Program-made: the position numbers and the translations under genes
Notes under the pieces: model-generated
What the model saw: only the letters and a program-made list of their open reading frames with translations
Told to the model about the DNA's origin: nothing
Database searches by the model: none
Shown here: one piece after another, positions 39,622 to 50,150 of the stretch
Layout: each line of letters begins with the position of its first letter
Position numbering within the stretch: position 1 is the stretch's first letter
DNA from: Neovahlkampfia damariscottae
Lineage: Eukaryota > Heterolobosea > Selenaionea > Neovahlkampfiida > Neovahlkampfiidae
DNA length: 64,000 nt
Assembly: GCA_016618085.1 (NCBI GenBank)
Contig: JABLTG010000066.1
Span: forward strand, 32,765 to 96,764
Direction: 5' to 3'

Positions 39622-40992
39622 TTATTGGCAAGGACATATTCTCAGAAATGAATCATTTTCAAAATTACAAGAAAATGGTTGATCTCGTTTAATGAAACAT
39701 TTCTTATTGTTGTAGTATGGAGCAGATAGATTTTCAGTGAATTCACATTTACAATCACCAAATGTTTTCTTCATCCATTCACAATTATTTATCAAAGGAA
39801 AACCACTCTCCAAACATTTCATATTTCTTGATTCACAAATTTCTTCACAAGAATTCATTCCAACTATATCTTTGAACTTTAATTGGTTGAGCATCACTCG
39901 TCTAAATTTAGAACTGAATGGATAATCGATTCTCACATCATGCTTATTTCTATAAGAATACTCATTCATTTTTGAACTATTCATTCCACATGGTGAAATC
40001 ATATTTTTTGGACAATCCCAAATCTCAAATTTCTCTTGCATGAAAACTGATTGGTGATACATAGGACCAAAACAATCTGCCTCTGCTCTTTCTTTTACAT
40101 CATCATTAGCCACTGATGACACTTTTCCGATATGTTCAAATAAATTGTATCTATAAGTATAGGAAATATTTCGATGATCACTATGCTTTGAATGATCCGA
40201 GTAAAAATCACCAACTGCCCAGTCAACAGGAAATGGTGGTTGGTTATGTACAAAACATGTTTTTTCAACAAATTTTGTCAATTTTTCAAGTTCATTGCAC
40301 CTAAGAATGATGCCATTCAATCCAAAACCAAATTTAACGGCGACCAAGTCTTTTCTCATTTTCATCGTGTGATAAAGTGAATAAAGGTGTACAGTGGCTT
40401 GTGGACAAATAATAAAATCATCTTCCATGTACAAAAAAATATCATCTTTTGGACATTTTTTCTTCCAAATTTTCATCATTTCTATCCAACTTGAAGTTTG
40501 TTTTTCAATTTTTGAATCTCTATCTGTTCGTATTTTTACTGTAATATTTCTTGAAATATCACTCATTTCAAATTGAAAATGGTTCCATTTGGGCATTTTA
40601 AAAGGTATATCTTTTGTAGTTGAAAAGGTATTTACTTTGAAATCAATATTGACCTCTTCAAATGATTTGGTTAAATTGGTTAATGTGTGTATCAGGTAAT
40701 TGTAATTAACTTTTCTTCTTTTTGTTGTTGGAATTACAATGTTTATTTTGTTCTGTACACTCGGAAAATTGCTATCAATCTTCAATTGTAATTTTTTGAA
40801 GAGTTCCAAATTTGAACATCTAATTAAGTTTTTTTCTGATAGAAATTGAGTATTTTCACAAGATACATCCATAAATCTGTTGAGCATTTGTGCGGCTCTG
40901 GACCTTATTTTGAAGTGAATTTGTGAGCGGAAGATTAGAACAAAAATGATTATCAGCAGAATCACCAGCAGTTGTTGTTTTTTTATTTTCAT
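39622..40992 (-). CDS. Golgi-type N-acetylglucosaminyltransferase, MGAT4-like (array copy 2)
   Basis: One exon, 456 residues. Type II topology: short basic tail and one membrane helix (L-L-V-I-L-L-I-I-I-F-V-L-I-F). The catalytic part has I-V-I-P-T-T-K-R, then F-L-Y-M-E-D-D-F-I-I-C (E-D-D metal site), F-G-L-N-G-I-I-L-R-C and P-V-D-W-A-V-G, the pattern of GT54 enzymes (MGAT4). The C-terminal 80 residues are cysteine-rich (S-C-E-E-I-C, F-P-L-I-N-N-C, F-S-C-N, R-I-C-P-C), resembling the end of MGAT5. It probably adds GlcNAc in the secretory pathway. Start at 40992, 55 nt after ATTGG; the longer frame has no ATG. Confidence 0.85.
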   Translation of the reverse strand: MKIKKQQLLVILLIIIFVLIFRSQIHFKIRSRAAQMLNRFMDVSCENTQFLSEKNLIRCSNLELFKKLQLKIDSNFPSVQNKINIVIPTTKRRKVNYNYLIHTLTNLTKSFEEVNIDFKVNTFSTTKDIPFKMPKWNHFQFEMSDISRNITVKIRTDRDSKIEKQTSSWIEMMKIWKKKCPKDDIFLYMEDDFIICPQATVHLYSLYHTMKMRKDLVAVKFGFGLNGIILRCNELEKLTKFVEKTCFVHNQPPFPVDWAVGDFYSDHSKHSDHRNISYTYRYNLFEHIGKVSSVANDDVKERAEADCFGPMYHQSVFMQEKFEIWDCPKNMISPCGMNSSKMNEYSYRNKHDVRIDYPFSSKFRRVMLNQLKFKDIVGMNSCEEICESRNMKCLESGFPLINNCEWMKKTFGDCKCEFTENLSAPYYNNKKCFIKRDQPFSCNFENDSFLRICPCQ

Positions 40993-41152
40993 TTTTCTAA
41001 AAAATGTGAAGTTTGAGTCTTCCAAAATAGAGTGCAAGTAAATATAATTGGTCCATTTTTCTCCAAATCAAACGTCTTTCAAAAAAAAATGGATTGAAAT
41101 CAATCACATCAAAACACCTTTTGGGAAAACAAATAGAAAAGTTAATGATGGT

Positions 41153-42535
41153 TTATTGACAAGGACATATCCTTAGAATGGAATTGTTTGAAACATCACA
41201 ATAGAAAGGTTGATTTCTTTTGATGTAACATTTCTTATTATAATAACAAGGAGCCATTGGATTCTCTGTGAATTCACACTCACAATCACCAAATTTTTTC
41301 TTCATCCATTCACAATTATTTATCAAAGGAAAACCACTTTCTGAACATTTCATCATTTTTATCATACAAATATCTTCACAAGAATCATTTCCAACATAAT
41401 CTTTCACTTCTAATTGATTCAATATTTCTTGTCTAAATTCAGAACTAAATGGATAATCAATTCTAACATCATGCTTATTTCGATATGAATATTCTTCTAT
41501 TTTAACTTTATTCTTAATTCCACAAGGAGAAAACATTTTATTTGGACAACTCCAAACATCAAATTTCTCTTGCATAAAAATTGCTTGATGATACATTGAA
41601 CCAAAACAATTGGCTTCTGATCTTTCATCATCATCATTTAAAACAGAAGAAACTTTTCCAATATGTTTGAACAAATTATATCTATAGCTGTATGAAATTC
41701 TTCGATGATCATTATTTTTAGAAAAATATGAATAAAAATCACCAACAGCCCAATCAACAGGAAATGGTGGTTCTCTATTTACAAAACAGTTATTTGTGGC
41801 ATATTCCATTAATTTTGATAAATCATTACATCTCATAATGATTCCATTCAATCCAAAACTAAATTTAACAGCAGTTAGATCTTTTCTCTTTTTCATCATG
41901 TGATAAAGTGAATAAAGATGTACAGTGGCCTGTGGACAAATAATAAAATCATCTTCCATGTACAAAAAAATATCATCTTTTGGACATTTTTTCTTCCAAA
42001 TTTTCATCATTGCCAACCATTCTAATGATTGTTTTTGGATTCTTGAATCTCTTTTTGAATGAATTATTGGAAAAATACCACTGGGTAATTCACCTTTTTT
42101 AAATTGAAAATGATTCCAATGTTTCATTTTAAATGGAATTTCTTTTGTTGTTGAAAAAGTATTAATCTCAAAGTCAATATTAGACTCTTGAAAAGATTTT
42201 GTTAAATTTGTTAATGTATATACTAAGTAGTTGAAATTAACTTTGGTTCTTTTGGTTGTTGGAATGACTATATTTATTTTATCTTGTGCTTTTGTTTTGA
42301 AAAAAATTTCAGTAAGGTAATTTGCTTTTTTTGTAATGTTCAAATCAATAATCTCTTTTCCTTGTGGTATGGGCTGTTCTGTTAATAACTCAGGATGAAT
42401 TCCTGAAGATGATATAAATTTGTGTATCATTGAGAGTGCTTTGATTTTTAATTTAAAATTCATTTGTAAACTAAAAAACAGAATGAAAAAAAGTATCACA
42501 AACAGTATTATTAACTGCTTCTTTCTCATTTTCAT
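41153..42535 (-). CDS. Golgi-type N-acetylglucosaminyltransferase, MGAT4-like (array copy 1)
   Basis: One exon, 460 residues, clearly a paralogue of copy 2 with long identical blocks (W-K-K-K-C-P-K-D-D-I-F-L-Y-M-E-D-D). It has the same membrane anchor, I-V-I-P-T-T-K-R, E-D-D, P-V-D-W-A-V-G and the C-terminal cysteine pattern ending R-I-C-P-C-Q. The N-terminal stem differs most. ATTGG is about 53 nt upstream. Order and direction of the three genes show head-to-tail duplication. Confidence 0.87.
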   Translation of the reverse strand: MKMRKKQLIILFVILFFILFFSLQMNFKLKIKALSMIHKFISSSGIHPELLTEQPIPQGKEIIDLNITKKANYLTEIFFKTKAQDKINIVIPTTKRTKVNFNYLVYTLTNLTKSFQESNIDFEINTFSTTKEIPFKMKHWNHFQFKKGELPSGIFPIIHSKRDSRIQKQSLEWLAMMKIWKKKCPKDDIFLYMEDDFIICPQATVHLYSLYHMMKKRKDLTAVKFSFGLNGIIMRCNDLSKLMEYATNNCFVNREPPFPVDWAVGDFYSYFSKNNDHRRISYSYRYNLFKHIGKVSSVLNDDDERSEANCFGSMYHQAIFMQEKFDVWSCPNKMFSPCGIKNKVKIEEYSYRNKHDVRIDYPFSSEFRQEILNQLEVKDYVGNDSCEDICMIKMMKCSESGFPLINNCEWMKKKFGDCECEFTENPMAPCYYNKKCYIKRNQPFYCDVSNNSILRICPCQ

Positions 42536-47832: not shown

Positions 47833-49278
47833 TTATTCATTTTTTGCTAAGACAACTGTATATTTCGATCCACAAGCTGCATGTATAACTTTACTTGGTA
47901 TTTCAACTTCATGAATATCTTGACTTTGGACAGTTGATCCAGAAACGCCCAATTGACCATTCCAATTTGATCCCATGGTAAAAAGTTTACCTTCCTCTGA
48001 AATGAAGCATAAATGATGAGAACCAGCAGCAACACATTTGAGATTACTTAATTTTTCTTTTTTTGTTGGTTGTAATAAAGTACCACCCCACATCCAACCA
48101 ATATTATCAATATCAACTGCGCAACATACAGATTCACCCATTGCAACATCTTTGAATTTAACCTCGATTTCTTTATCATCTTTCACTTCTAAAGGTGTAG
48201 GTTCACTAACTGCATCAAATTGTCCTCCACCAATTAAATTTCCTGTACTTTCAATACCCTATCAAAATTTGAAATTTTGTTGATGAATTTTCACTTACAA
48301 GTTGAAGTCTTTCATTTCTTCCAAACATTAAAACTGTTCCATTTTGACATAAAATTGAAGAAGAATTGTTTGCACAACTTGTTTTTATTGGTGTATCCAC
48401 AAAATATTCTGGTTTTATTTGATATGGTGTTTTTTGATTTGAATGACCTCCATTACCCAATCTTCCCTAATAATTGATAAATATCATCATAAAATATTAC
48501 CCTATATAATATTTAAAAAAAAGTACAAGATTAAATTACCATTCACCTAGAAATGTTGTGTTAATTTTTTTTGAATTTTCTCAGTTACCTTTTCCCCATG
48601 AATAGACATTTCCTGTTTCTGTTATTGCAACAGCATGTCTTTTTCCCATTGCAATACTTACTAATTTTTCATTATTCACGTCAATTTTTGTTGGTGTCAA
48701 AATATCAGTTGTTTGTCCATTTCCTAAACAACCCATGCCAAATGGAATTGATTTTTGATATCTACCACCCCATCCAAATGTTAACAATTCACCAGATTCT
48801 TTAAATATCAAATTAAAACAAATATCAATTCAAAACCTGTTATTAAAGCAGAATTGAATGCACCACAAGCAACAAATTTAATTTTCTCTTCTAATTCAAT
48901 CAATTTTGGTTCTGATCCCGTTTCAGCAGATCCATGACCAAGTTGTCCAGATGTTCCTAACTTGATTTAATTATTCATTTTTTATTACCTGAACCCCACG
49001 AATAAACTTCTCCAGTTTCTTGAAAATTAATTTTTTTTTTTTTTCAAACCTGTTAATGCCAAAGCATGTTCATCTCCACAAGCAAGTTGTTTAATATTTT
49101 TATCTTCAAAAATTTTCATGAGATTAGGTTTAACTTCTCCTTTAAGTTTGTATCTTTCTCCTAAAGAACCAAAATGATAAACAGATGTACTATAAACTAA
49201 TTTCACTTTAGATTAGAATATAAGTTTACATTTTAAATTCCTTATTGTTTTTGTTTGTGAAAGTAATTTTTTAAACAT
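47833..49278 (-). CDS. RCC1-repeat protein, RCC1L-like, with 7-nt and 1-nt exons
   Basis: Nine exons read leftwards: 49278-49230, 49205-49050, 49018-48989, 48956-48837, 48798-48589, 48546-48540 (7 nt), 48501 (1 nt), 48466-48299, 48258-47833. Introns: 24, 31, 32, 38, 42, 38, 34 and 40 nt. The sum, 1167 nt, gives 388 residues in frame. RCC1 repeats are clear: V-Y-S-W-G-S-G-T-S-G-Q-L-G-H-G, V-Y-S-W-G-K-G-E-W-G-R-L-G-N-G-G, W-N-G-Q-L-G. The basic, Ser/Thr-rich N-terminus suggests mitochondrial import, as in RCC1L. The two tiny exons supply G-E-W in the second repeat; other canonical splice choices I tried break the frame. The exact junctions need cDNA. Confidence 0.9.
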
Positions 49279-49374: not shown

Positions 49375-50150
49375 TTATTCAAGATTTTTACATCTGACGC
49401 ATGAAGAAGGACAATCTAATCCTAAATCTTCAATATCATCTTCTTTATCACCATATTTTTCAATTGCTGTTTTAAATGCAATTTCACCAATTTTATCTTC
49501 AACACCAGCTAAATGTACAGCTGAATGTGCATGTAAACATTTGATACTTGATTCCACACCAACACCTGTATTTCCAAATCTTTTTGGTTTTATTTTTTCC
49601 TCTTTTTCATCAAAATATTCAGGTTTTCTATTGCCTGAAATCCATTTAGTGAACTGTTCTTTTGAAATATATCCTGAATTTTGTAACCATTCTTTATAGT
49701 TATCGTTACTTTCTAAAATGTATTTTTTATAGTCTCCTTCTTCTTCATCTATTTTTTTTTGTAATTCTTGAGTTAATTTAGCTTCTTCTAATTTTGAAAT
49801 TAATTCTCTATATCTTGGACAAGTTAACCAAACCATAGTTCCTGAAACAACGTCTTCTTTGTCGTTATTTTTTTGTTTTTTTGGTCTTGTATCAGAAAGA
49901 AATGTAACTGTTGGAAAACCCCATCGACCTTTAAAAAGATTTAATCATCAAATTTTCTTACCTTTTTTGAAAATTTAAATTTTTTTTTTTCGTTACATCT
50001 TGCTAAGACTTTTTCAGCTTCATTATATTGTCGAACACGTTGCATTTGAAATTTTAAAGTCTTTATATCCGTTTCTGATAAATCTGAGGATAATTTTCGT
50101 TTTATTGAAGTCATTGTGTTTTGTAACAATTTTTTTGTTCGACCAATCAT
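49375..50150 (-). CDS. DUF501 family protein
   Basis: Exons 50150-49997 and 49928-49375 give 235 residues (223 if the second ATG, 50114, is used; the first overlaps the promoter element GACCAATCAT). The DUF501 pattern is present: L-A-R-C, F-P-T-V-T-F-L, V-W-L-T-C-P-R-Y...I-S-K-L-E, V-K-like K-C-L-H-A-H-S-A-V-H-L-A-G and a C-terminal C-P-S-S-C-V-R-C. This family is common in bacteria and rare in eukaryotes; its function is unknown. The gap between exons, 68 nt, is exactly two normal introns (49962-49996, 35 nt; 49929-49961, 33 nt) touching at AAG|GTAAG. Confidence 0.85.

Follow-up and report, generated by a model that had tools for sequence, protein, structure and literature searches.

We predict that a single G on the minus strand, at position 48501 of the window (the whole stretch of 64,000 nt that was analysed), is a real and routinely used one-nucleotide exon that completes the tryptophan codon within the GEWGRLG motif of an RCC1-repeat protein. 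We hold this reading to be very probable. Directly observed are three GT-AG introns, the reading frame, the motif, and the lack of any other open GT-AG parse once the outer junctions are fixed. The gene structure, the homologous proteins, a set of alternative joins and the short exons elsewhere in the genome are described below.

Structure and homologs of the RCC1-repeat gene

The gene occupies positions 47833..49278 on the minus strand, with its ATG at 49278 and a stop codon that ends at 47833. Nine coding exons specify 385 amino acids, and the start region of this model is uncertain by 9 nt. Five stretches of the protein match the Pfam RCC1 profile (PF00415), and the full-length score is 175.5 bits, where the cut-off is 21.7. 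Our guess for its function is an RCC1-like propeller, possibly mitochondrial judging by the N-terminus. A DNA search of its own genome (20.44 Mb, 307 contigs) returned the gene as a single match. The coding sequence had been given as 1167 nt in the earlier note; the total in our re-derived model is 1158 nt including the stop codon, and the divisibility by three holds for both. This 9-nt difference is consistent with an intron 1 of 24 rather than 33 nt when read by hand, as two acceptors are possible there, and the gene finder described below picks the acceptor 9 nt upstream. Either acceptor keeps the frame and leaves the mini-exons unaffected.

Exon 5 (48589..48798, minus strand) has the 3′ end TAT TCA TGG GGA AAA G, in phase 1. 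Exon 8 (48299..48466, minus strand) begins with GGAAGATTGGGT, which after the join reads GGA AGA TTG GGT, i.e., G R L G. The 122 nt between the two exons comprise three introns, a 7-nt exon and the single G. In the direction of transcription, these are intron 5 (48547..48588, 42 nt), exon 6 (48540..48546, GTGAATG), intron 6 (48502..48539, 38 nt), exon 7 (48501..48501, the G) and intron 7 (48467..48500, 34 nt), all on the minus strand and all introns of the GT-AG type. Exon 6 is supported by the exon join, the gene finder and the enumeration of parses. The lone G of exon 7 lies directly between the AG of intron 6 and the GT of intron 7, in the five letters AG-G-GT at 48503-48499 of the minus strand, and supplies the last letter of TGG, the Trp codon. 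Compared with 294 trusted introns of 26–46 nt, donor and acceptor rank at the 73rd and 46th percentiles for intron 5, at the 67th and 97th for intron 6, and at the 81st and 88th for intron 7.

The predicted mRNA would thus run from GGAAAAG of exon 5 through GTGAATGG of the mini-exons into GGAAGATT of exon 8. The spliced reading is TAT TCA TGG GGA AAA GGT GAA TGG GGA AGA TTG GGT, translated as Y S W G K G E W G R L G. The earlier note had proposed this arrangement, and its coordinates, the intron lengths of 42, 38 and 34 nt, the GT-AG ends, the GTGAATG at 48546-48540 and G48501 were each reproduced from the sequence. The three introns had also been called normal in local size, and they indeed fall between 26 and 46 nt, as do 294 of the 310 introns counted in the genome (mean of these 294, 35.1 nt; SD 3.8).

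The best of 160 homologues, the JGI record P0001 of 370 amino acids (contig of up to 4571 bases), shares 49% identity over 97% of the gene. Its segment YFWGRGDWGRLG aligns without gaps with YSWGKGEWGRLG of the RCC1 gene. The GEWGRLG found here corresponds to GDWGRLG in P0001, so that the Trp completed by the lone G is matched. The proposed G-E-W reading, which completes the repeat motif, was re-derived and holds. Among 144 genomic matches to P0001, the last exon of the RCC1 gene ranked at the top with 162 bits, the next place reaching 72. Two counts were made among the 120 listed homologues. In an alignment-free count that allowed spacings of 0–5, the gap from WGxG to G[RQKS][LIV]G was two residues in 88 of 92 motif matches. 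All 112 homologues spanning the place align without a gap (112/112), a count that leans towards our gene model because the alignments were made to this very model; the 88/92 count is free of that bias. Scans for DNA of a sister species, two in viral contigs and two in prokaryote genome contigs, each with a single protein as query, gave no relative.

Several observations were made on the surroundings. The 20-Mb genome (G000) contains at least 150 RCC1-repeat matches, a large expansion of this repeat. An Spb1 homologue in the window has its best named matches in Acrasis, Naegleria and Willaertia, with 41% identity, the top matches overall being 57% and less or partial. For the neighbouring DUF501 gene, the only named match among seven has a truncated name that starts with Percolo. 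Together, the Spb1 and DUF501 homologues make it likely that the source is a heterolobosean or a near relative of this group. For one member of this neighborhood, Acrasis kona, the accessible part of the report gives introns of 9–95 bp (PMC11589745). Public data include a close relative: P0241, from ENA and on a contig of up to 3893 bases, shows 91% identity across 65% of the DUF501 protein. Two adjoining minus-strand open reading frames (window positions 39622-42535) both match glycosyltransferase family 18 at their C-terminal ends and may have arisen by tandem duplication. Searches of the window with Rfam at the gathering threshold and with ARAGORN yielded 0 matches each.

Alternative joins and rival explanations

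Joins were scored with a gene finder that uses codon usage, splice-site matrices and intron lengths and works without homology. Its training sequence was 254 kb of this genome, with the window among it, and gave 180 genes; 310 introns had exons of 20 nt or more on both sides. Introns 5–7 were left out of its splice-site and length model because their flanking exons are shorter than 20 nt; the finder scores single codons only, and its codon table includes the genes of the window. It parsed the locus as introns of 42, 38 and 34 nt with exons of 7 and 1 nt. It also joined the RCC1 gene to the upstream DUF501 gene via a false intron of 186 nt, so its gene borders are not trustworthy. Fourteen predicted introns longer than 46 nt persisted when zero-length joins were allowed, and several of these resemble false joins. 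A search for branch points in the introns gave weak 5-mer enrichment.

With the outer junctions fixed, we enumerated, without pruning, all parses that contain no more than four introns, each 10 nt or longer, and exons of 1 nt or longer. Among the seven GT-AG parses obtained, the sole in-frame and stop-free one consisted of the 42-, 38- and 34-nt introns with exons of 7 and 1 nt. The requirement of both mini-exons for the frame, claimed previously, was re-derived here from the single open parse and from the premature stops of the skips. Skipping either or both mini-exons, or any of five tested retentions of introns 5–7, led to a stop at 187–204 amino acids and was rejected. Omission of the lone G would take a 73-nt intron, upon which the translated protein ends at residue 204. 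Removal of the 122 nt as a single intron is out of frame and leads to a stop after 189 amino acids. A recursive (zero-length) splice site at G48501 was discarded as well, as one base separates AG from GT.

A wider enumeration left the sites free between the start of exon 5 and the end of exon 8, allowed up to four introns of 18–200 nt and pruned low-scoring branches. It returned 1536 open parses, 774 of which use the 1-nt exon. The top parse was again the one with introns of 42, 38 and 34 nt, with a score of 38.2 compared to 23.5 for the top parse lacking a 1-nt exon. The latter contains a 141-nt intron (48607-48467); it loses VYSWGKGEW, scores 14.7 log units lower and was rejected. Among the 1536 parses, 25 retain YSWGKG..GRLGNGG, and the 1-nt exon is present in all 25.

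The rival that survives best is an error in the assembly, to which we assign only a slim chance. A base may be missing in the GGG run at 48467-48465 or nearby, and the true structure would then be the 7-nt exon followed by a 73-nt intron. With GGGG at that place, one GT-AG intron would suffice for an identical mRNA. Other genes of this genome lose stretches of 66 and 68 nt, and the DNA search gave no second copy of the RCC1 gene. Against this stands that 73 nt is far beyond the range into which 294 of the 310 introns fall, and that the error would require an accidental AG-G-GT dividing the stretch into two introns of typical size, with all four splice sites of the two scoring above the median. 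We simulated 200,000 introns of 73 nt and scored in them the two internal sites and the lengths, leaving the outer sites aside. An AG-N-GT cutting the intron into two parts of 28–45 nt, the geometry alone, occurred in 688 of 200,000, and a frame-fixing exon of 1, 4, 7, 10 or 13 nt was so placed in 1295 of 200,000; under either design, none (0/200,000) matched the observed scores of internal sites and lengths. The finder was further challenged with artificial one-base insertions and deletions near trusted introns of 26–46 nt in genes with a finder score of at least 15. In 742 trials it invented a 1-nt exon six times, out of 74 new exons of 1–16 nt in all. At none of these six exons did both introns reach the 10.4/10.4 of the real locus, the nearest scoring 9.0/10.1, which speaks against an assembly error here. 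Since the finder is able to invent micro-exons, those that lack support by homology may be false.

Even less probable, in our judgement, is one 73-nt intron with a non-canonical end, either GT...TA, in which case the acceptor side contributes the G, or TA...AG, in which case the donor side does. Its product would be identical letter by letter, so that RNA-seq mappers could report the locus in this form. It would combine an unusual border with an unusual length, where two typical introns account for an identical sequence. For 73 nt the log length term is −9.7, versus −2.8 for 38 nt and −2.5 for 34 nt, and splice-site scores cover canonical borders only. A decaying pseudogene, or a different protein at this place with G-E-W in no transcript, is the least credible explanation of all, given that all other exons are open, that P0001 is 49% identical with 97% of the gene covered, motif included, and that the RCC1 profile score lies well above the cut-off.

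Short exons and abutting introns elsewhere in the genome

In 312,882 bases with 211 genes, the finder predicted 16 internal exons of 1–15 nt. Two of them belong to the RCC1 gene, three are supported by solved homologues, and for the remaining eleven the finder is the sole source. The three supported exons all align gap-free with a solved homologue. A 3-nt exon (ATG) in locus L016 (contig C98, 37707-37705, minus strand) lies within ILADEMGLGKT of an ISWI-like ATPase. A 6-nt exon in L034 (C76, from 17802, plus strand) falls within GIYGYGFEKPS of eIF4A. An 11-nt exon in L012 (C270, 21535-21525, minus strand) codes for ANYA in GQANYAMAK of an SDR enzyme; it is preceded by a 25-nt exon (C270, 21592-21568, minus strand), and the pair covers GIYGNFGQANYA. 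The Tyr in the NYxxxK motif of this enzyme is presumably catalytic.

Two further places can be read with an exon of length zero, once the finder is allowed such exons. In the DUF501 gene, which adjoins the RCC1 gene, an intervening sequence of 68 nt (49929..49996, minus strand) can be divided into abutting GT-AG introns of 35 and 33 nt, with AG directly before GT at 49962/49961, i.e., a zero-length exon. One 68-nt intron would give the identical mRNA. The joined RC-RWG is gap-free by eye in all six homologues that reach it, of seven found. In L015 (G000 contig C98, 28588-28523, minus strand), a 66-nt intron consists of two abutting 33-nt GT-AG introns, both starting with GTATTTA. By geometry alone, such an abutting split arose in 181 of 60,000 simulated introns of 66 nt and in 233 of 60,000 of 68 nt. 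As stretches of 66–68 nt are removed somehow, a single 73-nt excision at the RCC1 locus has some small probability as well.

We compared the sizes of 285 internal exons with an exponential distribution fitted to 60–600 nt. Exons of 0–9 nt numbered 12, compared to 14.7 expected. The bins 0–19, 20–39 and 40–59 nt held 19, 14 and 17 exons, with 28.7, 26.1 and 23.7 expected. For 0–59 nt as a whole, 50 were observed versus 78.5 expected, about a third fewer, and the very shortest were not singled out. This deficit means that exon length may not be wholly ignored. Stronger splice sites beside micro-exons were considered and dismissed (mean score 8.57 in the 37 introns that flank exons of up to 16 nt versus 8.17 in 388 others, p = 0.25). 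The earlier note had called one-nucleotide exons extremely rare; in this genome, the RCC1 case looks like the short end of a size range that reaches zero and not like an isolated freak. As the 1-nt exon was the starting point of the analysis, the window gives no basis for extrapolating its frequency.

A broader reading would be that splicing in this lineage is blind to exon length. The introns of about 35 nt would be the sole recognised unit, exon sizes would continue down to one and zero, and many exons of one or zero nucleotides would be hidden from standard annotation. We regard the chances of this reading as evenly balanced.

Proposed splicing route and comparison with known one-base exons

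In the route that we propose, splicing would take out two ordinary short introns, of 38 and 34 nt, in succession, and the G left between them would complete the Trp codon. The spliceosome would recognise each short intron as a unit, by intron definition within a narrow length window, and exon length would barely matter. The same length window would disfavour a skip of 73 nt. The sequence AG/G/GTAATA appears to leave no room for the 3′-site factors of intron 6 together with U1 on intron 7, which suggests sequential removal; the AG of intron 6 lies within what we take to be the usual U1 footprint of the intron 7 donor. This donor scores 5.8 while intron 6 is still present and 5.0 once it is gone, so that either order looks workable, and either would end in the same mRNA.

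The predicted exon would set a lower limit to what can be recognised as an exon in a eukaryote that is distant from both plants and fungi. In its genome, independence from exon size can be measured, where until now isolated oddities had to carry the argument. Should the exon-blind reading be true, intron definition alone would be enough for accurate splicing. One- and zero-base exons would then be a normal consequence of densely packed short introns, and gene predictors that impose a minimum exon length would misread such genomes. With 122 nt, the locus is compact and would make a convenient minigene for studying the order in which neighbouring introns are removed.

As precedent, the earlier note had named the Arabidopsis APC11 gene. 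This is a valid 1-nt exon, and further nuclear cases are in print, plant VPS55 and Fusarium CYP621A. The APC11 exon is described, in the accessible part of the report, as a constitutive exon of one base between AG and GT that is needed for the frame, as demonstrated by a base change in a minigene (PMC4674806). Its base is an A within 422 nt that the annotation treats as one intron, 333 nt from the start of this interval, and it is a lone micro-exon (PMC4674806). The RCC1 exon resembles it in the one base between AG and GT that the frame requires; it differs in the base, a G, in its introns of 34–42 nt, in the adjoining 7-nt exon and in being predicted from genome sequence. For VPS55, the available text reports a spliceosomal micro-exon of 1 nt with RT-PCR support, kept in many land plants, and isoforms that retain introns in some lineages (PMC8831610). 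The RCC1 case is likewise a one-base spliceosomal exon, here a predicted one.

Closest in its letters is the Fusarium CYP621A exon. According to the accessible portion of that report, a 1-nt exon is found in 24 genes from several genomes, has SRA reads behind it for two of the species, and was inferred against an intronless relative (PMC12940212). Both cases share the same five letters AG-G-GT and a phase mismatch inside a conserved motif; ours concerns one gene in one genome, read from the genomic DNA alone. A single-base exon has also been described, as far as the available text extends, in placozoan mitochondrial cox1, where it is flanked by group I introns (PMC5436844). The one-base exon is what is shared with it, whereas the RCC1 case is nuclear and of the spliceosomal type.

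The locus also recalls stwintrons (spliceosomal twin introns) in that two neighbouring introns need successive removal. In stwintrons, as described in the sources available in part, a splice signal of the outer intron is interrupted by the inner one. At the RCC1 locus, introns 6 and 7 each have a complete GT and AG of their own, donors and acceptors are uninterrupted, and one base lies between them, so that we rejected this assignment. A literature search over titles and abstract openings, with subscription papers mostly outside its scope, found no nuclear 1-nt exon from a protist. The predicted RCC1 exon would thus add a further nuclear 1-nt exon to the plant and Fusarium cases, in an unusually compact form, with exons of 7 nt and 1 nt in a row within 122 nt.
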